Shown here: positions 11,971 through 31,115 of the stretch, one piece after another | Position numbering within the stretch: position 1 is the stretch's first letter | Layout of the letters: each line of letters starts with the position of its first letter | NCBI RefSeq assembly: GCF_001887355.1 | Contig: NZ_MPIN01000009.1 | Coordinates: forward strand, 310,001 to 374,000 | Direction of reading: 5' to 3' | From: Cystobacter ferrugineus | GTDB lineage: Bacteria; Myxococcota; Myxococcia; Myxococcales; Myxococcaceae | Length of the DNA: 64,000 nucleotides | Translations under genes and position numbers: made by a program | Notes under the pieces: model-generated | Databases searched by the model: none | Told to the model about the DNA's origin: nothing | Seen by the model: only the letters and a program-made list of their open reading frames with translations

Positions 11971-12325
11971 CCTCCTGGGGCGCGGGCTCATCGCGCCCTC
12001 CTGGAAGGCAATCCCCTCCCCTTCACCAGACGAATTCCCAGACGGGTCTTGAACGATTCAAGGCCCGAATGCGTCCCCGTGTCTCGAGTGTCGTTTCCCT
12101 GACGACAGGATGAGCTCGACCTCAACACCTACCACTCCAACGTAAATTTCACCACTCACTGGAATTTCCCCCATTCCAGTTCTAGCTCGTTTAACCCGAA
12201 AAAATGATTTATATGCTCCATCACACCCGCTGAAGGACATAGGCCGCGTTGCGGACAAGCAACTCTCCAACGCGACTGGTGGATAAAAGCAGGCGTGTGA
12301 CTTGCCTTACCCCCTGGAGGTCGCG
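11971..12325 (+). promoter_or_regulatory. AT-rich upstream region of the large GH87 gene
   Basis: This roughly 350-base gap holds a 7-bp GC hairpin without a T-run (11978-11984 with 11992-11998), possibly ending the previous gene. Next comes an unusually AT-rich stretch (about 12135-12225) with a 7-bp inverted repeat CTGGAAT/ATTCCAG at 12159-12179 and TTAACC...TTTATATG about 12190-12220. The AT content against the GC-rich background suggests the glucanase promoter and a regulator site. The exact boxes are uncertain. Confidence 0.4.
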
Positions 12326-15300
12326 TTGAAAGACAGGTATGCAACGAGCTGGGCCCGCACCGGGCCTGGTGCTGGATTGATTTTGCTTCAGATGCTGACG
12401 GCCTGCGGTCCCCAGCAGCAGTCGTCCACGCCCCCCGACACGGGCGTGGTGGCTTCGAAGCTGGACCAGAACGTCGCGCTCGGAAAGAGCATCACGACCT
12501 CGGGTTATACGCAGGTCTATGTCGCGGCGAACGCGAATGATGGCAACCGGAGCACCTACTGGGAGGGCGCGCCCAATGCCTATCCCAATACCCTGACGGT
12601 GAACCTCGGCGCCAGCTACACGGTCAGCGCCGTGGTGTTGCAGCTCAACCCGGACAGCGTCTGGAGCACCCGAACCCAGAACATCACGGTGCTGGGTCGC
12701 GGCTCGGCGAGCGGCACCTTCACCACCCTGGTGGCCGCGGCGGACTACACCTTCAACCCCGCGAGCGGCAATCAGGTGACCATCCCCCTGACGACGACCG
12801 CGAGCGAGATCCAATTGCGCTTCGCGTCGAACACGGGCGCCCCCGGCGCGCAGATCGCGGAGTTCCAGGTCCTCGGCTCGCCGTCCGGCGGAACGGCGAC
12901 CTATGCCCTGACGGTCAACAACGGCTCGGGCGGCGGCACCTACGCGGCCGACACCGTGGTGAACATCTCGGCCAACCCCGCCCCCGCCAACCAGGTCTTC
13001 AGCTCCTGGTCGGGTGGTGTCGCGGCCAACTTCGGCAACATCTACTCGGCGACCACCACGTACAAGACGACCGCGGCCGCGGCCACCCTCACCGCCAACT
13101 ACGTGCCGGCGGGCTCGGGCGGCTCCAAGTACGAGGCGGAAGCGGCGACCCTGAGCGGCGGCGCGGCGACCACCACCAACCACGCCAACTACAGCGGCTC
13201 GGGCTTCGTGGAGGGCTACTGGGCCCAGGGCGCGAGCACCCGCTTCAACGTCTCCGTCACGAGTGCCGGCTGGTATGACGTGGGCCTGCGCTATGGCAAC
13301 GGCTTCGCGGACTCCAACATCTCCGTCTACGTGAACGGCGCGCGCAGCGCGCAGAGCGCCCTGCCCACCACCGGCAACTGGGACACCTGGGCCACCAAGG
13401 TCGAGACCTTCTACCTGAACGCCGGTGGCAACTCGATCGCCTACCAGTACGACGCGGGCGACCTCGCGAACGTCAACCTGGACTACATCACCGTCGGAGC
13501 CACGGCCGCCAAGAAGGCCGACCTGACCGTGGCCGACATCCAGTGGAGCGCGGCGAGCAACCCGCCCAAGGAGGGCGAGGCCATCACCCTCAAGGCCGTG
13601 GTGCGCAACACCGGCACGGCCGCCAGCCCGAGTGGCGTCCACAAGGTCTCCTTCCGCGTGAACAACCAGGAGATCGCCGCCTCGACGCAGCCCACCACGA
13701 CGTCCATCGCGGCCGGCGCGAGCGCCACCCTGACGGCCAACGCCGCCTGGTCTTCCGCCAACGGCACCTACGCCATCACCGCCGTCGTGGACCCGGACAA
13801 CACCATCGCCGAGTTCAACGACGCCAACAACAGCGCCACCAAGAACCTCACGGTGACGCAGCAGCCCGGCCCGGACCTCGTGGTGAAGTCCATCTCCCAG
13901 AGCCCGGCCAACCCCTCCGCGGGCAGCCCGGTCACCTTCAACGTGACCGTCGCCAACCAGGGCCTCGACGCGGCCGGCAGCTCCGCCGCCGTCCGGCTCA
14001 CCATCGACGGAACGACGAACCTCTCGGGCGTCACCTCCACGGCGCTCGCCGCGGGCGCCTCGACCGTCGTGAGCCTCGGCGGCTCCTGGACGGCCACCAA
14101 CGGCAACCACACCCTCGCCGCGACGATCGATCCCTCCAACGCCATCTCCGAGTCCGTGGAGAGCAACAACACGCTGAACTCCAGCTTCTACGTCGGCCGC
14201 GGCGCCCGCGTGCCGTGGATCGAGTACGAGGCCGAGGACGGGACGACCAACGCCCAGGTCCAGGGTCCCAGCCGCGCGCTCGGCACCATCCCGGGCGAGG
14301 CGTCCGGACGCAAGGCCGTGGTGCTCAGCTCGACCGGCCACTACGTGCAGTGGACCACCACCGCGCCCGCCAACTCCATCGTCATCCGCAACAGCATCCC
14401 CGACGCGCCCGGCGGCGGCGGCACCCGAGCCACCATCAGCCTCTACGTCAACGGCAGCAAGGTGGACACCCTCACCCTCTCCTCCAAGGAGGCCTGGGTC
14501 TACGGTGACGACGCCACCCAGTACAACAACCCCTCGGCGGGCCCCCCGCGCCGCATCTACGACGAGTCCAGCAAGCTGCTGAAGACCACCATCCCCCAGG
14601 GCGCCACCGTCCGCCTCCAGAAGGACTCGGGCGACACCTCCCCGTACTACGCCATCGACTTCATCGACCTCGAGCTCGTCGCGGATCCGCTCCCCAAGCC
14701 CGAGGGCTACGTCGACGTCACCCAGGCGGGCAACGGCTGGGAGCCCGCCATCCCCAACGATGGCATCGCCGACGACAACGCCATCAGCCAGGCCATCTGG
14801 GCGGTCCAGGCCGGCAGGTTCAAGGGTGTGTACCTCCCGCCGGGCGTCTACGATCAGACGAACAAGATCCAGGTCAAGGGCGTCACCATCCAGGGCGCGG
14901 GCCTGTGGCACACCCGGCTCTACAACGCCAGCCTGGCCGAGGACGCGGGCTGGGGTCAGACCGGCTTCATCATCACCGGCGATGACTCGAAGTTCCGCGA
15001 CTTCGCCATCTTCGGCAACACCGACGGCCTGCGGACCCAGGGTGGCAAGGCCTGGGTGAACTCGGCCTTCAAGAACACCGTCATCGAGAACATGTGGATC
15101 GAGCACGTCCACTGCGGCTACTGGGTCGGCGGCCCCTCCGAGTCGACGAACCTGCGCATCAGCAACGTGCGCATCCGCAACACCGGCGCGGACGGCATCA
15201 ACCTGTGCAACGGCACCAAGGACAGCGTCATCGAGAACTCGCACGCCCGCAACACGGGTGACGATGCCTTCGCCATCTGGTCCGCGACCGACCTCTACCC

Positions 15301-15844
15301 GCAGCCGGACCGCAACAACGTCATCCGCAACTGCAGCGTGCAGATCGTCTGGCGCGCCGCCGCCTACGCCATCTACGGCGGCGTCGGCAACCGCATCGAG
15401 AACAGCACCGCCGCGGATGTGCTCACCTACCCCGGCCTGACCGTCAGCTCCGAGTTCAACCCCTACCCCATGGAGTCCGCGACGATCGACGGCCTGACCC
15501 TCACCCGCACCGGTGGCACCTACTGGGGTGGTCAGCAGTTCGGCTCCATCTGGCTGCGCGGCGACCAGAACCCGACCAACGGCATCACCATCAAGAACGT
15601 CGACATCATCGACCCGACCTACCAGGGCATCAGCATCCAGAACAACGGGGGCGTCTTCACCAACGTGTCGTTCGATCACATCACCATCACCAACCCCACC
15701 ACCTACGGCATCCAGGTGCTGTCCACGGCCAAGGGTGGCGCCACCTTCAGCAACGTGACGGTGAACAACGCCCCCAGCGGCAAGGTCGTCAACCAGAGCA
15801 ACGGCGGCTTCACCATCACCAACGGCGGCGGCAACAACTGGTAG
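12326..15844 (+). CDS. Multimodular GH87 alpha-1,3-glucanase (mutanase/mycodextranase type), lipoprotein
   Basis: The 1172-residue enzyme should split alpha-1,3-glucan, a fungal wall and dental-plaque polymer. TTG at 12326 is chosen because GGAGG sits five bases upstream. A lipobox (LTAC, Cys27) is followed by an F5/8C-type binding domain (about 45-190), an InlB-like repeat (190-262), a CBM6/35-type domain (KYEAEA..., 268-392), two CARDB domains (396-510, 511-625) and the GH87 catalytic part (626-1172). The latter is a jelly-roll segment then a right-handed beta-helix. Asp956 (ADGIN) and Asp979-Asp980 (TGDDA) match in spacing the three catalytic Asp of characterised GH87 enzymes. Role in fungal predation is inferred. 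Confidence 0.88.
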   Translation: MKDRYATSWARTGPGAGLILLQMLTACGPQQQSSTPPDTGVVASKLDQNVALGKSITTSGYTQVYVAANANDGNRSTYWEGAPNAYPNTLTVNLGASYTVSAVVLQLNPDSVWSTRTQNITVLGRGSASGTFTTLVAAADYTFNPASGNQVTIPLTTTASEIQLRFASNTGAPGAQIAEFQVLGSPSGGTATYALTVNNGSGGGTYAADTVVNISANPAPANQVFSSWSGGVAANFGNIYSATTTYKTTAAAATLTANYVPAGSGGSKYEAEAATLSGGAATTTNHANYSGSGFVEGYWAQGASTRFNVSVTSAGWYDVGLRYGNGFADSNISVYVNGARSAQSALPTTGNWDTWATKVETFYLNAGGNSIAYQYDAGDLANVNLDYITVGATAAKKADLTVADIQWSAASNPPKEGEAITLKAVVRNTGTAASPSGVHKVSFRVNNQEIAASTQPTTTSIAAGASATLTANAAWSSANGTYAITAVVDPDNTIAEFNDANNSATKNLTVTQQPGPDLVVKSISQSPANPSAGSPVTFNVTVANQGLDAAGSSAAVRLTIDGTTNLSGVTSTALAAGASTVVSLGGSWTATNGNHTLAATIDPSNAISESVESNNTLNSSFYVGRGARVPWIEYEAEDGTTNAQVQGPSRALGTIPGEASGRKAVVLSSTGHYVQWTTTAPANSIVIRNSIPDAPGGGGTRATISLYVNGSKVDTLTLSSKEAWVYGDDATQYNNPSAGPPRRIYDESSKLLKTTIPQGATVRLQKDSGDTSPYYAIDFIDLELVADPLPKPEGYVDVTQAGNGWEPAIPNDGIADDNAISQAIWAVQAGRFKGVYLPPGVYDQTNKIQVKGVTIQGAGLWHTRLYNASLAEDAGWGQTGFIITGDDSKFRDFAIFGNTDGLRTQGGKAWVNSAFKNTVIENMWIEHVHCGYWVGGPSESTNLRISNVRIRNTGADGINLCNGTKDSVIENSHARNTGDDAFAIWSATDLYPQPDRNNVIRNCSVQIVWRAAAYAIYGGVGNRIENSTAADVLTYPGLTVSSEFNPYPMESATIDGLTLTRTGGTYWGGQQFGSIWLRGDQNPTNGITIKNVDIIDPTYQGISIQNNGGVFTNVSFDHITITNPTTYGIQVLSTAKGGATFSNVTVNNAPSGKVVNQSNGGFTITNGGGNNW

Positions 15845-15925: not shown

Positions 15926-17197
<1,272 letters not shown>

Positions 17198-17420
17198 TCG
17201 GTTCTGCCTCCTGTGGGGGGTAACGCGCGCGGGAGCATCCCCAATTTCCCCGGCGAACCCAACGAATTCATCTCCGGCCCATGTCAAGCGGTGGGCAGAT
17301 GCCCCTCTGGCCGCTTGCGGAGTTGACCGCGCGTGCCACTTGCCGCTCCGCGTCAAGCGCGAACGGTCACACCGGCCCGGCGGAGACCGGACCGGGAGGC
17401 CATGCTCTCGGCCGCTGGCG

Positions 17421-19202
17421 CTACCAGCCCATGTTGCCCGAGCGCTTGTCGAAGAAGTTCCCCGGCACGCCCGGGGCGTTGAGGGCGCCCTTCCCGGAGT
17501 CCTTCACCACCACGTCCTCGAAGCTCGCCCGGCCCCCCGCCCCGTCGATGACCTCGATGCCGTAGGTGCGCGAGCCCGTGACGAAGACGTTCTCGAGCAG
17601 GATGTTCGAGAACGTGGAGCCCTGGCTGTCCGGGTGGTTCTGGAACTGGATGCCCGCGAACGTCGAGTCGTAGATGTCGATGTTCTCCGCGGTGATGTCG
17701 TTGACGGGACCCTGGCGCGTGTAGAACCGGAGCGCGCCGTGGTTCATGCCAGACATGGGGCCACCCGCGCGGATGAGGGAGATGTCCTTGAGGGTCGTCG
17801 TCGGGGCGAACGGGTGCGCGTCGAACTCGTTGTCGATGAGGATGCCCGAGTAGGTCAGCACGTCCTCACACACGCTCTTCTCGATGGTGTTGTTGTAGCC
17901 CCCGTAGATGGCGAAGCAGTTGGCCCGCCAGGGCATCTGCACCGTGTTGTAGCGGTAGACGTTGTCGTGGCTCGCGGGATCGCCTGCCCCCTTGTTGGAC
18001 CACATGGCCATGGCGTCATCCCCCGTGTTGCGGAAGTGGCAGTGCTCGACCACGGAGTTGCGCGTCCCGTTGGCCAGGTTGATGCCATCCGCGTAGAGAT
18101 TGCGGAAGCGCGAGTGGCGCACCACCAGGCCATCCGTGCCGTAGGGGTCCGCGTCCGTGCCGCACCAGAAGCCCACCTTGACGTGCTCGACCCAGACGTT
18201 CTCGATGCTCGTGTTCTTGCCCACCCCTCCGTTGAAGCCATTGTTCGGGATGTCGTCGTCGCGGAAGTCGACCTCACCGAGGATGGAGAAGTCGGAGAAG
18301 CGGCAACCGCCCTCCCCCCAGCAATAGAAGGTGGCCTTCGCGCCCTTGAGGTGGGTGTACCACATGCCCGCGCCCCGGATTTCGATGCCCTTGAGCGACA
18401 GGCCCAACTGGCCTTGCTTCACCTGGTTGACGAGGTAGGTGCCCCGGGGAATCCACAACCCTTTCTTCCGTTCACCCACGGCCGCGTCGATGGCGTTCTG
18501 GATCGCCTCGCCGTCGTCCACGTTGTCGTCCGGGAGCGCGCCATACTCGGTGACGGACACCAGGTCCGCGGGCTTCTCCAGCGGCGGCGCGACCTGCTCC
18601 AGATCGATGAGGTCGATGACGTAGAACGCCGCGGTATCCTGGGCGTCCTTCTGGAGCTTCACCTCCGCGCCGGCCGGAATCGGATCGATCAGCGCCCGCG
18701 TCTCGTCGAAGAAGGCATGCGGCTCACCGGAACTGGGAGTGTTGGGGGTGCGCAGCTCCTCACCGCCGTAGACCCACGAGTAGCGTGAGGTCACCGCCAG
18801 CGACTTGACGCGCTGGCCATTCACATAGAGGCCCAGGGTCGAGTCGATGCCACCACCGTCCGGCGAGTCCGGAATCGACAGACGCACGACGATGGAATTG
18901 GCCGCCTTCTTCGCGGTGATGGCCACGTGGTCGCCCGTCTTGTCCAGGCGGACCGCCTTGCGCCCGATGGCCTCCGCCTCGATGTACGCCTGGTCATAGC
19001 GCGTCCGGTTGGGTCCGAGCACCGTCGCGTTCGTCCTGCCGTCCTCCGCCTGGTATTCCGTCCAGGGGACGTTGGCCCCCCGAGGGGCGCCCTCCGTGGA
19101 TTCGGAGCACGCACCACTGCCCAGGGAAAGCACCAGCAGGCCCGCCGTCAGAAGCTTGTGGATGGGAGCGGGGCTGGTTTCAACGCGAGTGTTTCGCTTC
19201 AT
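17421..19202 (-). CDS. Second GH87-type alpha-1,3-glucanase, catalytic module only, lipoprotein-like
   Basis: A 593-residue protein with an export signal (KLLTAGLLVLSLGSGAC, possible lipoprotein) and the same two-part catalytic region as the 1172-residue enzyme: the EYQAEDGRTNATVLGP jelly-roll, then the beta-helix with DGINLANGT (Asp372) and NTGDDAMAMW (Asp395-Asp396). The 23/24-residue spacing of the three Asp equals that of the larger enzyme. It lacks all carbohydrate-binding and CARDB domains. It may act on soluble or partly digested glucan at the cell surface while the modular enzyme holds insoluble polymer. The start at 19202 avoids overlap with the TetR gene. Confidence 0.85.
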   Translation of the reverse strand: MKRNTRVETSPAPIHKLLTAGLLVLSLGSGACSESTEGAPRGANVPWTEYQAEDGRTNATVLGPNRTRYDQAYIEAEAIGRKAVRLDKTGDHVAITAKKAANSIVVRLSIPDSPDGGGIDSTLGLYVNGQRVKSLAVTSRYSWVYGGEELRTPNTPSSGEPHAFFDETRALIDPIPAGAEVKLQKDAQDTAAFYVIDLIDLEQVAPPLEKPADLVSVTEYGALPDDNVDDGEAIQNAIDAAVGERKKGLWIPRGTYLVNQVKQGQLGLSLKGIEIRGAGMWYTHLKGAKATFYCWGEGGCRFSDFSILGEVDFRDDDIPNNGFNGGVGKNTSIENVWVEHVKVGFWCGTDADPYGTDGLVVRHSRFRNLYADGINLANGTRNSVVEHCHFRNTGDDAMAMWSNKGAGDPASHDNVYRYNTVQMPWRANCFAIYGGYNNTIEKSVCEDVLTYSGILIDNEFDAHPFAPTTTLKDISLIRAGGPMSGMNHGALRFYTRQGPVNDITAENIDIYDSTFAGIQFQNHPDSQGSTFSNILLENVFVTGSRTYGIEVIDGAGGRASFEDVVVKDSGKGALNAPGVPGNFFDKRSGNMGW

Positions 19203-19264
19203 CACTGGATGACCGTCCTTGTTGAGCTCCCCCTCCTTTACCCGAAGAGACGCGAAGGGAGTGC

Positions 19265-19885
19265 TCACCCCCGGGGAAAGCACACCAGTGAGAGCGCGGC
19301 GATCTTCCGCAGTGCCTCCTCGCTCGCGCCATCCCGGGCCTGCACGGACATGCCCTGGATGACGGCGCCATAGAACCGGGCGAGGCCCTCGGCATCCGTG
19401 GTGGAGGGCAGCTCGCCCTCGGCGATGGCCCGCTGGAACCGGGCCCGGAGCCGCTCCAACGAGGCATCACGCAACCCCGCCACATGCCGGGCCACCGGCT
19501 GGTTCTCCGTCGCGCAGTTGAGCACCGCCGTGGAGACCATGCACCCGTGTGGATGCCGGGGGTCGACGAACGCACGCGAGGCCTCCTCCAACACGCGGGC
19601 CATGAAGCCTCGCGCCGTCGGCTCCTCCACCAGGGCGGGCACGCCCGCCGACCCATGCGTCCGCTGGTAGAGATCCAGGGCTTCCCGGTACAGCTCCGCC
19701 TTGGAGGTGAAGGCCCCATACAGGCTGGGAGCGGTGATACCCATCGCCTCGGTGAGATCGGCGATGGACGCGCCCTCGTAGCCCCGCTCCCAGAACACCT
19801 CCATGGCCCGCTCCAACGCGGCGCTCCGATCGAACTCCCGTGGCCGACCCCTGCCCCGGCTCCTCGTGGGATTAGCTTTTTTCAT
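19265..19885 (-). CDS. TetR/AcrR-family transcriptional repressor
   Basis: A 206-residue regulator. After a basic start (MKKANPTRSRGRGRPREFD) the N-terminal helix-turn-helix reads ALERAMEVFWERGYEGASIA then DLTEAMGITAPSLYGAF, typical of TetR. The C-terminal ligand domain contains HPHGCMVSTAVLNCATENQP, as in the TetR_C/YcdC-like subgroup. It is divergent from the serine hydrolase gene at 19960 and sits 62 bases upstream of the small GH87 gene, so it may control either. The inducer is unknown. A GTG nine bases upstream is an alternative start. Confidence 0.88.
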   Translation of the reverse strand: MKKANPTRSRGRGRPREFDRSAALERAMEVFWERGYEGASIADLTEAMGITAPSLYGAFTSKAELYREALDLYQRTHGSAGVPALVEEPTARGFMARVLEEASRAFVDPRHPHGCMVSTAVLNCATENQPVARHVAGLRDASLERLRARFQRAIAEGELPSTTDAEGLARFYGAVIQGMSVQARDGASEEALRKIAALSLVCFPRG

Positions 19886-25219: not shown

Positions 25220-25686
25220 GCAACGGACGTGCCTGGCAGGGCAACGTGAAGATGCGCCTGTATGTGCGGGTTCGCGAACGTGGTTACGATTCTCTTACTG
25301 CCTTCGCTGATGCGCGCCCTGCCGTCCCGCTGTATTTGCTGGCCGAGGAACTGGGAAAGGATGACATCGCTGGGATACAGGTGTTGAGCGGTCTGCTCGC
25401 TGAGGCAGAGCGGCGTAAGCAGGTCACACGTTTTGTGCGCGATGTATTTACGCGCCTGTGGTCAGAGAGCGTCCCCGATGGTTGGCCGGTAGTGATAGAC
25501 GATGCAAACCGTGGAGAGGTTGCCATGGCTCTCGGCACGTGGGTTGCCTACACCCCGGAAACCCATAAGGAGCGCGCCGACAAAGCCGGCGACGCGCTCC
25601 TTGCAACTCCACCGCCACCTGGATGGCGCCCGCTCGGCCCTGACGACGAGTTGCTGCGCACGCTCCTGCCCGACGAGGAAGTCTGA
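25216..25686 (+). CDS. Immunity protein of the second DUF2380 cassette (intact)
   Basis: A 156-residue intact reading frame, same length as the copy A protein. The ends are nearly identical (GRAWQGNV..., TPPPPGWRPLGPDDELLRTL) while the central part differs (VRDVFTRLWSESVPDGWPVV against VRGQLVRELYESFPNGWPAV). Its ATG overlaps the toxin-remnant stop (ATGA). Base use here is a little more AT-rich than in neighbouring genes. That it is preserved while the toxin decays suggests it still protects the cell from kin that carry the active toxin. That is inference from the pattern. Confidence 0.7.
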   Translation: MSNGRAWQGNVKMRLYVRVRERGYDSLTAFADARPAVPLYLLAEELGKDDIAGIQVLSGLLAEAERRKQVTRFVRDVFTRLWSESVPDGWPVVIDDANRGEVAMALGTWVAYTPETHKERADKAGDALLATPPPPGWRPLGPDDELLRTLLPDEEV

Positions 25687-25711
25687 GCTTCACCCCTCGG
25701 TGACACAGGGG

Positions 25712-26677
25712 TCAGACACGCACGAGCAGGGCGAACTGGTGCGCGCCAATGCCCAGCCCCACCATCACCAGGTACTTCGTGCGCAGCTCGCGATGGAAGC
25801 GCGCCAGCGTCACGGGCAGGGAGGCGTGAACCATGTTGCCGAAATCCTCGTAGGTATCCAGGTACTCGCGTGGACGGAGCTGGGCGGCCCAGTGGTCCAT
25901 CAGCTTGCGCGTGGCCTGGTGGGAGATGAGTGTGACGTCGTTGCGGTGGATGCCATGTCTGGCGAGCAACCGCGCCACGAGCCTCGGCGGCCCGTCCATC
26001 CCCGAGGACAGGAAGGCCTGGATGCCCGCATCCGGAGCAATGCCATACGTGGGCTGCTCCACCCCCGAGCCAGGACGCGACGCCATGGTCATCGCGCCGT
26101 ACTCGCCGCTGAAGGTGTCCGCCGCCCAGTCCACCAGCACCAGGCGCTCGCCCGCCCCCACCACCGCCGCGCCCGCCCCATCCCCAATGCCAATGGCATG
26201 GCCCTGGCCGTAGTCCACGTTGCGCGTCCACCCCGAGCCCACCGCCACCAGCGCGTGCCGGATGCTCCCCGCCCGCAACGCCTCCCACGCCAGAACCACG
26301 CCCATCAGGAAGTTGGCGAAGTCCGCCTGCACCGGGATGACCAGCGCCTCCTGCCCCAACCCCAGCTCGCGGTGCACCGCGTAGAGCGCGTTGGGCGAGA
26401 CGAACTCCGACACGGACACGTAGCCGTAGAGCCGCTCCACCGCCTCGGGCCGCACCCCCGCGTCCTCCAGCGCCACCCGCCCCGCCCGCGCCGTCAGCGT
26501 CGCCAGCGACTCCCCGGGCGCCAGCACCCGGCGCTCCCGGTTGCCATAGAAGAGCGCATGTTCCCCTCCTCCCCGGGCGGCGGCGCGCCGTAGCGGCTCG
26601 AAGAGCGGATCGTCATTTCGGCGCACCTGCTCCGGCACCGCGGCGCCTACCCCCAACAGCGCGAAGTCACTCGACAT
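25712..26677 (-). CDS. KAS III (FabH)-like protein lacking the catalytic cysteine
   Basis: The 321-residue protein has the thiolase fold of 3-oxoacyl-ACP synthase III: LLGVGAAVPEQVRRND at the N-terminus, GIGDGAGAAVVGAGE in the middle, the catalytic His in SHQATRKLM and the Asn in FGNMVHASLP. At the nucleophile site, where FabH reads AACAGF, this protein has ADFANF, so Cys is replaced by Phe. Ordinary acyl-enzyme condensation is therefore impossible. Acyl transfer or an accessory role are possible, as for PqsB-like inactive partners. Its gene follows the ThDP enzyme after 11 bases, in one operon. Confidence 0.82.
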   Translation of the reverse strand: MSSDFALLGVGAAVPEQVRRNDDPLFEPLRRAAARGGGEHALFYGNRERRVLAPGESLATLTARAGRVALEDAGVRPEAVERLYGYVSVSEFVSPNALYAVHRELGLGQEALVIPVQADFANFLMGVVLAWEALRAGSIRHALVAVGSGWTRNVDYGQGHAIGIGDGAGAAVVGAGERLVLVDWAADTFSGEYGAMTMASRPGSGVEQPTYGIAPDAGIQAFLSSGMDGPPRLVARLLARHGIHRNDVTLISHQATRKLMDHWAAQLRPREYLDTYEDFGNMVHASLPVTLARFHRELRTKYLVMVGLGIGAHQFALLVRV

Positions 26678-26688
26678 GGTGCGCGCCC

Positions 26689-28563
26689 CTACCTGCCGTC
26701 CGAGGCCACCGCGGCGAAACGGTCCCCGTACGGCGGCACCTCGCGGTAGTCGACGCGCGCGATGATGACCTGCGGCTGCCCCAGCTCGTCCGCGCGGCGC
26801 AGCACCTCGGGCAGCAGCGCCGCGAGCTGCCCCGGCCCATCCACGGTATACGCGCGCGCACCGAGCGACTCGGCGAAGGCGGCGAGGTCCGGATCGCCCA
26901 GGCCGTAGAAGTCGTCCTCCAGGGGCACGGTGGTGTCCTGCGCGTGCTCCCCGTGGTTGACCATGCCCAGGTAGTTGTCATTGAGCACCAGCGTCACCGT
27001 GCCCACCCGGTAGCGCGACGCGGTCAAGAGCTCCGTGCCATTCATCAGGAACGCGCCATCCCCGGTGATGGCCACCGCGGCCCGCTCCGGCCGGCCCAGC
27101 TTGCCGCCGATGACGGCCCCGCAGGACCAGCCCATGGAGGACAGGCCGCACGGGAAGAAGATGCGCGTGGGAGGCGTGAGCCGCAGCAGGTGCGACGCCC
27201 AGCCCGTGCAGTTGCCCATGTCGATGTACAGATCCATGTCCGCACGCAGGTGCGCGTTCAGCTCGGCCATGAGCTGCTGCGGCTTGACCATGCCCTCGGC
27301 CTGGGGCGCGCGGGGGCTCGGCACGGGCTCGCGCAGCTCCACCATCCGCGACCAGCGCTCACGCAGCCGCTCTCCCCCGGGAGGGCCGCCGCGCCGCCCC
27401 CGCTCCACCAGTCCCGCCACCACCGAGCCCACGTCCGCGACGATGGGCAGGCGCACCGGCAGGAACTGCCCGATGTGGGCCGACTGGGCATCCACCTGGA
27501 TGACACTGTCGATGGACTGCAGGTGCTTGTTGAAGCCGCGGCTGGCCCACTCCCCCATCCGGCTGCCCAGCACGAGCAGCACGTCCACGCCCTCGCGCAC
27601 GTACGCCTCCGCGCGCCGGCTGCCCGCCAGCCCCAGCACCCCCAGCGACAGCGGCTCGTCCTCGGAGAACAGCCCCTTGCCGCGCAGGCTCGTGGCCACC
27701 GGAATCCCCTGCTCGGAGACGAAGGCGGTGAAGGCCTCGCCGTGGGTGCCCAGGGCCTCGCGCGCCCCGGAGCCCAGGACGATGAGCGGCCGGCGCGCGG
27801 CGCGCAGCAGTTGGAAGGTCTCGTCCAGATCCTCGGGAGCCGCCGCGGGCGGGCGCGCGCGGAAGGCCCCCCGGGTGGTGGGCAGCGTGGCGTGGCGGAT
27901 GCGCTGGCGCGCGATGTTGGAGGGGATGCTCAGGTGCGCCGCCCCACCGGGCAGCCCGTGCACCACGCGCAACACCCGCGCCAGCAGACGCTGGAAGCTC
28001 TGCGCGTCCACGACGCCCGCCGACACGGCGCTCGCCTGGCGGAACACCTCCACCGTGTTCACCCCGTGCGTGCCCGTGCTCTCCTGGATGGCGTTGAGGC
28101 CGAAGCGATCCGTGGCCACCTGCCCGCTGATGGCCAAGAGCGGCACGCCGTCCAGGTGCGCCGAGGCCACGCCCGTGAGCGCGTTGGTGGCCCCCGGGCC
28201 CGCCGTCACCAGGCACACGCCCAGCTTGCCCGTGGCGCGCGCATAGCCGTCCGCCATGAAGGCCGCGCCCCCCTCATGCGAGGCGATGACGAAGCGGATG
28301 GAGCCATGCTGGCGCAGCGCCTGCTGGAAGGGTGCGATGTTGCCCCCGGGAATCCCGAAGACGGCGTCGACCTCTTCCGCCTCCAGGTGCGCCACCACGC
28401 AGTCCGTGACGGACACCTCCTCCACCCGCCGGAAGCCCAGGCCTCGCGCCTCCCACTCCCGGGGAACCCCTCCCCCCGCGCCCTGGCCCTCCAAGGCGAG
28501 CAAGGCGGGGGGCAGCGCGGGGGATGAGTCGACCTGGAATTCGATGTGCGAGGAGAAGGACAT
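26689..28563 (-). CDS. Thiamine-diphosphate-dependent enzyme (acetolactate synthase-like)
   Basis: A 624-residue cytoplasmic enzyme. The Pyr domain has FGIPGGN and the activating Glu in SHEGGAAFMADGYARATG. A central DHS-like domain follows (RRPLIVLGSGARE). The PP domain carries the ThDP motif GDGAFLMNG...LNDN. This is the layout of acetolactate synthase, benzoylformate decarboxylase and acyloin synthases. No regulatory subunit is adjacent and the partner is a KAS III-like gene, so a role in secondary-metabolite acyloin formation is more likely than branched-chain amino acid synthesis. About 45 extra residues precede the domain; the ATG at 28563 is a best guess. Confidence 0.82.
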   Translation of the reverse strand: MSFSSHIEFQVDSSPALPPALLALEGQGAGGGVPREWEARGLGFRRVEEVSVTDCVVAHLEAEEVDAVFGIPGGNIAPFQQALRQHGSIRFVIASHEGGAAFMADGYARATGKLGVCLVTAGPGATNALTGVASAHLDGVPLLAISGQVATDRFGLNAIQESTGTHGVNTVEVFRQASAVSAGVVDAQSFQRLLARVLRVVHGLPGGAAHLSIPSNIARQRIRHATLPTTRGAFRARPPAAAPEDLDETFQLLRAARRPLIVLGSGAREALGTHGEAFTAFVSEQGIPVATSLRGKGLFSEDEPLSLGVLGLAGSRRAEAYVREGVDVLLVLGSRMGEWASRGFNKHLQSIDSVIQVDAQSAHIGQFLPVRLPIVADVGSVVAGLVERGRRGGPPGGERLRERWSRMVELREPVPSPRAPQAEGMVKPQQLMAELNAHLRADMDLYIDMGNCTGWASHLLRLTPPTRIFFPCGLSSMGWSCGAVIGGKLGRPERAAVAITGDGAFLMNGTELLTASRYRVGTVTLVLNDNYLGMVNHGEHAQDTTVPLEDDFYGLGDPDLAAFAESLGARAYTVDGPGQLAALLPEVLRRADELGQPQVIIARVDYREVPPYGDRFAAVASDGR

Positions 28564-28668
28564 GAGCCGGGGGGTGCCTTCGCTGGGGGTGTAAAAATCC
28601 GCCCCCAATACACCAGGCAAGCACACCCACACAAGCCGCGTCAGCATAATTTAGCGTTCTTGCTGGAA

Positions 28669-29316
28669 TCAGGACGAGGATATGCCGGGGAGATCGGCCC
28701 GCAACCCGGTGATGAGCCGCTCGAGGCCAAAAGCGAAGCGCGTGTCGAGGTCCGTGTCGAAGATGTCGTCGAGCGCCGCGAGCACGTGGGGGAAGCGCTC
28801 CTCTGGGAAGGAGGCGAAGCGCGCGCGGCTCCGGGGCAGATCCACGGGCTCGGGGTTGAAGCGCGGATCGAGCGCCTGTTCCTCCATGCTGAAGCCAATC
28901 ACATAATAGACGAGGGAGAAGCTCCCCCAGGCGGCCACGCGCGACGAGGCGCCCGCGCGCCGCAGCGCCCCCATCTGCGCCTCGCTCACACGCAGGATGT
29001 TCTCCGTGACGATGTAGGTGCCCGCGAAGACGCGCGCCCCGTCCCGGCGCGACAGCAGTGCCCGGCGCAGCTCGGTCGCCACCCGCCGCAGCACCTCGTC
29101 CCAGGGCAGCCCGGGCTCCACGTCGCGCGCCACCGGATCCACCAGCGCGTCCGCCATCCCATCCAACAACGCCTGCTTGTTGGCGAAGTGCCAGTAGAGC
29201 GACGGGGCCTGGATCTCCAGGCGCTGCGCCAGCTTGCGCATCGTCACCCCTTCGATTCCCGCCTCGTCCAGCAACACCAACGCCTCCCGCACCACCCGCT
29301 CCCTCTGAATGCGCAT
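28669..29316 (-). CDS. TetR-family regulator of the ThDP/monooxygenase cluster
   Basis: A 215-residue TetR protein: HTH helices RERVVREALVLLDEAGIEGV then TMRKLAQRLEIQAPSLYWHF. The C-terminal half resembles TetR_C of the tetracycline-repressor class (DPVARDVEPGLPWDEVLRRV). It is divergent from the FAD monooxygenase and upstream of the ThDP and KAS III-like genes on its own strand. The operator pair at 29344-29376 lies between the divergent starts, so it should repress both directions until a small ligand, perhaps the cluster product, binds. Confidence 0.9.
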   Translation of the reverse strand: MRIQRERVVREALVLLDEAGIEGVTMRKLAQRLEIQAPSLYWHFANKQALLDGMADALVDPVARDVEPGLPWDEVLRRVATELRRALLSRRDGARVFAGTYIVTENILRVSEAQMGALRRAGASSRVAAWGSFSLVYYVIGFSMEEQALDPRFNPEPVDLPRSRARFASFPEERFPHVLAALDDIFDTDLDTRFAFGLERLITGLRADLPGISSS

Positions 29317-29343
29317 GACTCCTCCCGGCTCCCGCTTGACAGC

Positions 29344-29376
29344 CTAACACTGTTAGTCCACAACTAACGGTGTTAG
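29344..29376. promoter_or_regulatory. Duplicated TetR operator
   Basis: CTAACACTGTTAG (29344-29356) and CTAACGGTGTTAG (29364-29376) are two 13-bp palindromes seven bases apart, and each is also the near-inverse of the other. They lie between the TetR start (29316) and the monooxygenase start (29390). Half-site CTAAC, and thus the AT content, stands out from the GC-rich surroundings. Confidence 0.85.
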
Positions 29377-29389
29377 ATTGGAGGCAGCG

Positions 29390-30850
29390 ATGACACGAGA
29401 GCAGGTGGAAGTGGCCGTCGTGGGTGGAGGCCCGGTGGGGTTGATGCTGGCCAGCGAGCTGGCCCTGGGGGGAGTGAAGGTGGCGGTGTACGAGCGAAGG
29501 AAGGAGCGGGTCGCCCAGTCACGCGCCCTGTCCGTGCACCCGCGCACCCTGGAGATCCTGGCGCTCCGGGGGCTGGAGCAGCGCTTCCTGGCGCGCGGCA
29601 AGTCCCTGTCGACGGGGCACTACGCCGCGCTGGACACGCGCCTGGACTTCTCGGTGCTCGACACGACGTTCCCCTATTCGCTGTTCATCCCCCAGACGCT
29701 CACCGAGGCACTCCTGGAGGAGCGCGCACGGGAGGTGGGCGTGGCGCTGCATCGCGGCCACCGCGTCAGCGGGCTGTGGCAGGACGCCGAGGGCGTGCGG
29801 CTCGAGGGAGAGCGGGAGGGCGGGACGTTCCAGGTGAGGGCCCGGTACGTGGTGGGCGCGGATGGCGCGCGCAGCGTGGTGCGCTCGCTGGCGGGCATCT
29901 CCTTCCCGGGCACCGACGTGACGACCACCCAGATGCTGGGGGATGTCATCCTCGCGGAGCCTCCCCCTCGGCCCGTGATGTCGCACACGAGCCTGAGTGG
30001 CGGCGCGATGCTCGTCCCCCTCGGAGACGGCGTCCATCACCGGATCGTCGTGGTCTCGCCCGGCCGGCAGCACGTCCCGCTGTCCGAGCCCGTCACCCTG
30101 GAGGAGCTGGCGGGAGCGGTCCGCGAGGTGGTGGGCACGGACTTCGGGATGCACTCGCCGGCGTGGCTGTCGCGCTTCGGCAACGAGACGCGCCACGCCA
30201 GCCGCTACCGCGAGGGCCGCGTGTTCCTGGTGGGTGACGCCGCCCACATCCACATGCCGGCGGGTGGACAGGGCCTCAACGTGGGGCTCCAGGACGCGAT
30301 GAACCTGGGCTGGAAGCTGGCGGGCGTGATGCGGGGCCTCGCGCCCACCTCGCTCCTCGACAGCTACCACCACGAGCGCCACCCCGTGGGCGCGCGGCTC
30401 ATCCAGAACACGCTGAGCCAGACGGCGCTCATGACCCACTTCAACCCGGCGGGAATGGCCTTGCGCGACACCTTCTGTGCGCTGCTCACCCAACCCCACG
30501 TCAACCGCATGTTCGCCGAGCAGATCTCCGCCTTCGACGTGGCCTACCCCCCCCCGCCCCTCACCGCCCCGGAGGGACTGAAGGTGGAGCCCGCCGTCTC
30601 CGGCACGCGCCTGGCCGACCAACCGCTGCGCTGCGAAGGAGGCGCCACGCGTTCGCTCTACTCCCTGCTGCACGAGGGCAAATGGCTGCTGCTGCGCCGG
30701 CCCGCCTCCGCGCGCCTGGAGCTGCCCGCCCCCTGGAGCGGCTGGACGACCCAGCTCACCGCCGAGCTGTCACGCGAAGTGCCGGGCCTGGACGCCTGGA
30801 GTTCGCTCCTGGTGCGTCCGGACGGACACCTGGGTTACGTCTCGCATTGA
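29390..30850 (+). CDS. FAD-dependent aromatic/polyketide monooxygenase
   Basis: A 486-residue flavoprotein of the PHBH/MhpA/polyketide-hydroxylase family. It has the Rossmann motif VAVVGGGPVGLMLASELAL, the conserved Arg region (SRALSVHPRTLEIL), the DG motif (YVVGADGARSVVRSLAG) and the second FAD motif (GRVFLVGDAAHIHMPAGGQG). Length is normal, including a thioredoxin-like C-terminal part. The ATG at 29390 follows GGAGG. It is transcribed away from TetR under the duplicated operator, and probably hydroxylates the product of the ThDP/KAS III-like pair. The substrate is unknown; self-resistance by drug hydroxylation is an alternative. Confidence 0.88.
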   Translation: MTREQVEVAVVGGGPVGLMLASELALGGVKVAVYERRKERVAQSRALSVHPRTLEILALRGLEQRFLARGKSLSTGHYAALDTRLDFSVLDTTFPYSLFIPQTLTEALLEERAREVGVALHRGHRVSGLWQDAEGVRLEGEREGGTFQVRARYVVGADGARSVVRSLAGISFPGTDVTTTQMLGDVILAEPPPRPVMSHTSLSGGAMLVPLGDGVHHRIVVVSPGRQHVPLSEPVTLEELAGAVREVVGTDFGMHSPAWLSRFGNETRHASRYREGRVFLVGDAAHIHMPAGGQGLNVGLQDAMNLGWKLAGVMRGLAPTSLLDSYHHERHPVGARLIQNTLSQTALMTHFNPAGMALRDTFCALLTQPHVNRMFAEQISAFDVAYPPPPLTAPEGLKVEPAVSGTRLADQPLRCEGGATRSLYSLLHEGKWLLLRRPASARLELPAPWSGWTTQLTAELSREVPGLDAWSSLLVRPDGHLGYVSH

Positions 30851-31012
30851 GGCGGCCCGCCGCCCCGTCTCTCCTTCTCTCATCCAGTCGCTGGCCAGGC
30901 CGGTAATCCCTGACATCTCGTAGAATTCCGCGTGCACGTCCGTCTGCCTTTTCCAGTCGAGGCACGGGTTGCCACACGCTTTGTCTCCCCCCTCGGGGTC
31001 CAGGCAAGCACG

Positions 31013-31034
31013 TCTCGATTTATAATTCCGCGAG
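31013..31034 (+). promoter_or_regulatory. Possible promoter of the sensor kinase gene
   Basis: An AT-rich patch contains TATAAT (31021-31026) framed by a small inverted repeat TCTCG/CGAGA (31013-31017 and 31030-31034). It lies about 90 bases before the kinase start in a 265-base gap. No good -35 box is seen. Confidence 0.4.
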
Positions 31035-31115
31035 AATATGTCATCATGGGCGGAATCTCGCCCGAGCACCCGGCCCGGGAGCACCGTATCGCTCGAGAGT
31101 CAAAGGAGAGGATGG

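Follow-up and report, generated by a model that had tools for sequence, protein, structure and literature searches.

A ketosynthase-fold protein with a Phe-His-Asn site is co-inherited with an HKA-synthase-like ThDP enzyme in Cystobacter ferrugineus and its relatives

Which genes at this locus of Cystobacter ferrugineus function together, and what might a KAS III-type protein do without its catalytic cysteine? The window, by which we mean the whole 64-kb stretch of DNA that was analyzed (64,000 nucleotides), contains neighboring genes for a ThDP enzyme, a KAS III-fold protein, a TetR-family repressor and an FAD monooxygenase. The initial annotation had described these as one small cluster in which the flavoprotein acts as a pathway member, the TetR protein serves as the cluster's own repressor, and the product is a small acyloin-derived compound.

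Gene layout

The reading frames and our Pfam search confirmed the positions and families of the four genes, and the starts of the ThDP and FAD genes were corrected. The features of the locus are as follows.

25712-26677, minus strand: KAS III-fold protein, 321 aa, second gene of the pair (Pfam PF08545/PF08541 above cut-off; AlphaFold model)
25835-25837, minus strand: Asn281 codon, KAS III catalytic Asn retained (alignments; codon checked)
25919-25921, minus strand: His253 codon, KAS III catalytic His retained (alignments; codon checked)
26318-26320, minus strand: Phe120 codon, at the KAS III catalytic Cys position (alignment with PqsD; codon checked)
26689-28563, minus strand: ThDP enzyme, HKA-synthase-like (frame listed to 28647; Pfam; BbmA best in PDB)
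26950-26952, minus strand: Gly566 codon, ThDP pocket Gly as in paired ThDP enzymes and BbmA (codon checked)
28669-29316, minus strand: TetR-family repressor, module 2 (Pfam TetR_N and TetR_C_1)
29344-29356, no strand: probable TetR operator 1, 13-bp palindrome CTAACACTGTTAG, between tetR and the monooxygenase gene
29364-29376, no strand: probable TetR operator 2, 13-bp palindrome CTAACGGTGTTAG, between tetR and the monooxygenase gene
29390-30850, plus strand: FAD monooxygenase (PRK08244 / rifampin-monooxygenase-like), the partner of TetR (Pfam FAD_binding_3 and Rng_hyd_C)

On the minus strand, transcription proceeds from TetR through the ThDP enzyme to the KAS III-fold protein, and the FAD monooxygenase gene diverges from TetR on the plus strand. 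Only 21 bases separate the TetR frame from the ThDP frame as listed. In a sister genome, a TAA precedes the Met that matches Met29 of this ThDP frame; Met29 (base 28563) is therefore the probable start, and residues 1-28 are probably not translated. The monooxygenase probably starts at the ATG at 29390, which has a GGAGG in front of it. A search for sigma-70-like promoters from 25600 to 31100 found none. In agreement with the initial annotation, the Pfam scan of 30 window proteins gave no match to PKS or carrier-protein families; a CoA-ligase gene was likewise unmatched among these 30 proteins. Elsewhere in the window, two alpha-1,3-glucanase genes (12302-15844 and 17421-19283) lie on either side of a gene for a solute-binding protein (15926-17356) and may serve in breaking down fungal walls.

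The KAS III-fold protein and the ThDP enzyme

Both Pfam families of the KAS III fold scored above their cut-offs (ACP_syn_III, 29.5 bits against 24; ACP_syn_III_C, 40 bits against 26.6), and the AlphaFold model (pLDDT 90.5) had the KAS III fold, placing the protein in the KAS III (FabH) superfamily, of thiolase-type fold, at the fold level. Comparison of the model with PDB structures put PqsD on top (Z 39.0, rmsd 2.1, 303 aligned), with FabH entries tied at 38.3; by sequence, PqsD scored 77 bits versus 65 bits for FabH. The likeness to PqsD and FabH lies in the fold, the His and the Asn; however, the window protein is only ~19-27% identical to them and lacks the Cys nucleophile. The catalytic Cys of PqsD aligns with Phe120, which the AlphaFold model places at the start of the helix where the nucleophile belongs, and there is not a single Cys in the 321 residues, so that the protein was correctly recognized at the outset as Cys-less. 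His253, Gln254 and Asn281 are retained, and the Asn of the FabH HQAN motif is replaced by Thr. The site thus reads Phe-His-Asn instead of the Cys-His-Asn triad of KAS III enzymes, and it did so in all 16 clade members inspected by alignment (18 full-length sequences exist). Nine of these 18 contain no Cys, and no Cys is invariant across the clade.

The association of a ThDP enzyme with a KAS III-like protein is, as first proposed, a recognized biosynthetic pairing. According to the literature, CybE/CybF-type pairs make butenolides and participate in the biosynthesis of cyanobacterin, a furanolide, and co-localized homologues occur in Plesiocystis and Enhygromyxa (PMC8777810, PMC12395478). CybE-type enzymes are described there as forming alpha-hydroxy-beta-keto acids (HKAs), and CybF as performing a decarboxylative O-acylation, a Morita-Baylis-Hillman step and a hydride shift (PMC12395478, PMC13288894, PMC8777810). 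The xenocyloin cluster of Xenorhabdus, the comparison drawn in the initial annotation, likewise combines a ThDP enzyme with KS enzymes; PMC4578411 reports acylating activity for the KS enzymes of xenocyloin, cervimycin and nonactin. Among the papers listed in our literature search, none was recognized as one that describes a Cys-less KAS III protein paired with a ThDP enzyme; the pair may be named in Table S6 of PMC8777810, which covers cybE/cybF homologues of other myxobacteria.

When the paired KAS of G185 was used to search the 195 Myxococcota genomes, 30 loci were obtained, comprising 17 with a ThDP gene alongside, 10 with FabH-like proteins and no ThDP gene in the flanks, and 3 cut by contig ends. 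At the position of Phe120, the paired KAS proteins have Cys (15 of 17) or Ser (2 of 17), whereas the window clade has Phe. Among the 13 rows tabulated, the column of the FabH Asn held Ser in seven and Asn in two, and 11 had an Asn five columns further on, while the window clade showed the FabH arrangement. In Myxococcota, it is common to find ThDP/KAS III pairs of the CybE/CybF type in which the Cys or Ser is intact. These 17 other pairs (L134-L140, L143-L150, L161 and L163) represent a possible reservoir of butenolide or acyloin loci. At L150, L161 and L163, as well as at L151, where the flank is cut, the paired KAS has the Cys and lacks the catalytic His.

In the KAS tree, a branch set off each of three groups, namely the window clade (on a very long one), the paired KAS proteins and FabH; the tree omits CybF itself and, being unrooted, is silent on which two of the three groups are sisters. 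The paired KAS proteins were grouped with a support of 96/92, and the window clade fell outside. Proteins with the Phe-His-Asn site form a separate and highly divergent branch that, as sampled, is not part of the CybF-like clade, yet they occur in the same kind of gene pair. Of the known systems, the CybE/CybF pair of the furanolides was the nearest that could be set against the window locus, on the ThDP side. The window locus resembles it in that a ThDP enzyme is followed by a KAS III-type protein and in that its ThDP member lies nearest to BbmA, which is an HKA synthase like the CybE-type enzymes. The KAS-fold protein differs from CybF-like proteins in its Phe for Cys, its FabH-like Asn position and its separate clade.

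The ThDP enzyme contains three ThDP domains (Pfam), and its best sequence match in the PDB was BbmA (326 bits, 35% identity), compared with 208 bits for the best AHAS. Its AlphaFold model (pLDDT 83.9) retrieved the two BbmA entries (8x3x and 8xod, 'ThDP-dependent HKA synthase') first (Z 46.3, rmsd 2.4, 524 aligned; next family, 43.8), a likeness that is nevertheless one of distant relatives. CsmA (8x3z) matched by sequence and was absent among the best 50 matches of the model. BpmA of the literature is presumably the BbmA of the PDB. An identity as AHAS (acetolactate synthase) was rejected, the score being about 306 bits against a curated cut-off of 538.35; the AHAS of this genome is a different gene (743.1 bits). 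In the ThDP tree, a support of 93/95, below the starred level, united the window clade with the paired ThDP enzymes and one unpaired sequence (L133) and separated it from AHAS and other paralogues. Its nearest solved relative being an HKA synthase, and its grouping being with the paired ThDP enzymes apart from AHAS, the protein was classified as a probable CybE-type enzyme. At L133 (8818-11177), the gene after the unpaired HKA-synthase-like ThDP gene appears citrate-synthase-like by eye.

A pocket Gly was common to 8 of 8 sequences of the window clade and 16 of 17 other paired ThDP enzymes; it occurred in none of the five unpaired sequences, where the residue is L, E, A or, in two near-identical sequences, K. 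The residue numbering suggests that this position corresponds to G484 of BbmA, which entry 8xod carries as a Phe mutant, and we take it to be that of Trp464 in AHAS II; in the model, the stretch around it has a pLDDT below 50. BbmA shares the pocket Gly.

Inheritance of the pair and of the TetR-monooxygenase module

The KAS-fold gene (E <= 1e-20) was present in 16 of 98 relatives, and the ThDP gene (E <= 1e-150) in the identical 16. In the 195 Myxococcota genomes, a sample that includes many of the 98 relatives, 28 carried the ThDP gene (at least 65% identity) and the same 28 carried the KAS-fold gene (at least 69%); the KAS gene was cut by a contig end in three of these carriers, and the ThDP gene was split over two contigs in one. 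Weaker matches were not counted (ThDP, 35-36%, in G110 and G185; KAS, 30-31%, in G110, G027 and a second place in G010). These counts are not independent, because the carriers belong to five genera of one family. G001, a member of the window's genus, has neither gene above the identity limits. The two genes lie side by side in the window's genus, g26 (Corallococcus) and g17, and apart in seven genomes (six g8, Archangium, and G006); in G010, a genome of one contig, their coordinates are 7.5 Mb apart. Such co-retention without linkage is hard to explain unless the two proteins have a joint function. Two alignments of the unlinked g8 pair genes revealed no shared promoter motif by eye.

The dN/dS ratios between sister species (three pairs) were 0.05-0.07 for the KAS-fold gene and 0.11-0.18 for the ThDP gene, and those within Archangium (three pairs) were 0.06-0.07 and 0.20-0.35, respectively. 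The KAS-fold gene is therefore under strong purifying selection, stronger than that on the ThDP gene, and the low ratios indicate that the Cys-less protein is actively maintained. In the best trees, the pair genes of the window's genus grouped with those of Corallococcus, whereas rpoB placed the genus with Archangium (19 rows, of which L071, L077 and L084 were far off, probably through a wrong frame, and were disregarded). We do not claim horizontal transfer of the pair into the genus, because a forced Archangium placement was weakly rejected for KAS (p-AU 0.038) and was not rejected for ThDP (0.318).

A small 143-aa protein, h3, was considered as a candidate third member of the pathway. It is encoded divergently from the ThDP gene in g8, G006, g26 and g17, whereas its gene lies at another place in the window's genus.

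L060:11598-12029, plus strand: h3-type small protein (about 140 aa); in the window's own genome, G000:C8:339539-339958, minus strand

Among the 98 genomes, the 16 carriers of the pair all have h3, and so does one more, the pair-less G001. Searches with h3 gave no Pfam match up to E 0.01 and one PDB match that was not meaningful (E 0.98). A POT-family transporter gene adjoins the ThDP gene in all seven g8/G006 contexts (L056-L062; Pfam on one), and in the window's genome a homologue (L063:10167-11693) lies next to h3, with no ThDP gene beside them.

The FAD monooxygenase gene (E <= 1e-120) also occurred in 16 of the 98 relatives; however, this set differed from that of the pair. Both were present in 11 genomes, the monooxygenase alone in five (four g15 genomes and G001) and the pair alone in another five (G006, G019, G034, G040 and G047). 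The 11 shared genomes count against full independence of the two modules; in eight of them (six g8 and two g26), the monooxygenase match was 58-61% identical and located on other contigs or far from the pair. No TetR or monooxygenase matches of at least 60 bits were detected in the flanks of the pair genes at the Corallococcus and Archangium loci (up to 10 kb, several shorter), a result that counts against the flavoprotein as a pathway member.

Eight of the 16 monooxygenase loci were examined (three pair-holding loci of the window's genus, G001 and four g15), and each had a diverging TetR homologue and two CTAACNNNGTTAG palindromes 19-20 bp apart, including the five without the pair. The CTAACNNNGTTAG pattern had no match in 1.26 Mb of other DNA, a comparison set that contains overlapping loci and leaves out seven loci overlapping the window or its sisters. 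Within the 64-kb window, it appeared only between tetR and the monooxygenase gene. Since TetR and the operators travel with the monooxygenase, and the operators lie only there in the window, TetR very probably controls itself and the monooxygenase, reaching the pair at most via read-through. Next to the pair, TetR and the FAD monooxygenase seem to constitute a module of their own that regulates itself, and the idea of a repressor belonging to the cluster found no support, given that TetR and the monooxygenase occur together, with their own operators, in five pair-less genomes. Scattering of the genes in relatives, which the initial annotation had named as evidence against its cluster, was found for both TetR and the FAD monooxygenase. 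The four genes as a conserved unit were rejected, as the distributions of the pair and of TetR/monooxygenase differ among the 98 relatives. Module 2 resembles TetR-controlled FAD monooxygenases (PRK08244 and rifampin monooxygenase) in family; however, the monooxygenase scored 573 bits to PRK08244 (curated cut-off 644) and 402.6 bits to rif_monoox NF033145 (800), which does not make it a rifampin monooxygenase, and TetR scored 153 bits to the Tet repressor model (265). No drug substrate can be named, because all three NCBIfam scores are under the curated cut-offs.

Possible function of the pair

Judging from its relatives, the ThDP enzyme probably has HKA-synthase chemistry. It would decarboxylate one alpha-keto acid to an enamine, which would add to the keto group of a second alpha-keto acid, and the resulting HKA would be released, as by CybE-type enzymes. 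The predicted small acyloin-derived product was therefore partly upheld: a product of two alpha-keto acids is likely because the nearest solved relative is an HKA synthase, and an acyloin is plausible.

We tentatively favor a reading in which the ThDP/KAS pair is the functional unit and the KAS-fold protein decarboxylates the HKA to a defined acyloin, although this is less than an even bet. Co-inheritance with and without linkage, the low dN/dS of the KAS-fold gene, the BbmA likeness, the pocket Gly and the constant Phe-His-Asn site speak for this reading; the position of the KAS protein outside the CybF-like clade, the 93/95 support of a ThDP group that takes in the unpaired L133, the low pLDDT around the pocket Gly and the confinement of carriers to one family speak against it. 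Even if HKA-synthase chemistry is granted, the assignment as HKA decarboxylase is possible rather than expected. With Phe120 at the nucleophile position, no acyl-enzyme could form at the usual place, and the acyl-enzyme steps of CybF fall away because the protein has no nucleophile. The His-Asn dyad of KAS III enzymes promotes decarboxylation, and we propose an HKA decarboxylase because this dyad could still promote CO2 loss and guide protonation. The protein would bind the HKA directly and remove CO2, with His253 and Asn281 controlling protonation of the enediolate, without covalent catalysis, to give a defined acyloin. This division of labor would be the same as that between acetolactate synthase and acetolactate decarboxylase, the job of the latter being carried out by a re-purposed ketosynthase; the fold of acetolactate decarboxylase is unrelated to that of the ketosynthase-fold protein. 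Acetolactate decarboxylase (PF03306) was missing in all 16 carriers, which is weak evidence for the decarboxylase role, as it was also missing in 11 of 14 control genomes. Moreover, a dedicated HKA decarboxylase may be unnecessary, because HKAs also decarboxylate spontaneously, as described for the CybE product in PMC8777810.

Alternatively, the KAS fold might bind an acyl-CoA and, with His253 as the base, pass its acyl group directly to the oxygen of the acyloin; this would be the first CybF step without a Cys and would give an O-acyl acyloin or a butenolide precursor. The decarboxylative O-acylation described for CybF in PMC13288894, the acylating KS enzymes mentioned above and the nucleophile kept by all 17 other paired KAS proteins, which raises the possibility of an acyltransferase ancestor, are in line with such a non-covalent acyltransferase; but the nucleophile is gone, Thr replaces the Asn of HQAN and no CoA-ligase gene was matched among the 30 window proteins scanned, and we consider this activity rather unlikely. 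The loss of the nucleophile together with the strict co-retention with the ThDP gene would also suit a pseudoenzyme, that is, a KAS-fold protein without catalysis of its own on which the ThDP enzyme depends as an obligate scaffold or subunit. Retention of His253 and Asn281 in all 16 sequences inspected would be superfluous for a mere scaffold, however, and we regard this role as unlikely.

KSQ domains, which have His and Asn without Cys, decarboxylate malonyl thioesters. The window site follows a similar logic, and C112Q FabH structures exist, to judge from entry titles, so that a malonyl-type decarboxylase passing a carbon nucleophile or an acetyl group into the ThDP product can be conceived; the site is Phe, not Gln, and no carrier protein was detected among the 30 window proteins, making this activity improbable. 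Still more improbable is a four-gene cluster in which TetR would act as repressor of all the genes and the acyloin would be modified by the FAD monooxygenase. The 21-base spacing, the adjacency of all four genes in G002 and G003 as well, and a monooxygenase match somewhere in the genome in 11 of the 16 pair carriers speak for it. It conflicts with the five genomes in each direction that have one module without the other, with the constant company of TetR and operators at the eight monooxygenase loci, five of them without the pair, and with the confinement of the window operators to the tetR-monooxygenase interval.

ThDP/KAS III pairs make acyloins and butenolides by a compact route, and the version in the window retains the second enzyme save its nucleophile, under stronger selection than the ThDP enzyme. 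The new element is this conserved Phe-His-Asn ketosynthase tied to a predicted HKA synthase. The earlier guess from adjacency is corrected in that the repressor and the flavoprotein look like a separate module; therefore, derepression of TetR probably would not reveal the product of the pair. It is a rather doubtful prospect that, in Corallococcus, Archangium and the window's genus, a ketosynthase fold serves as a non-covalent HKA decarboxylase obligately coupled to an HKA synthase, yielding an enantiopure acyloin, perhaps a signal or a volatile, without a CoA thioester, carrier protein or acyl-enzyme. If catalytic, the KAS-fold protein would reveal the capabilities of the His-Asn half of a ketosynthase on its own, and the pair would constitute a two-enzyme, CoA-free route to chiral acyloins.
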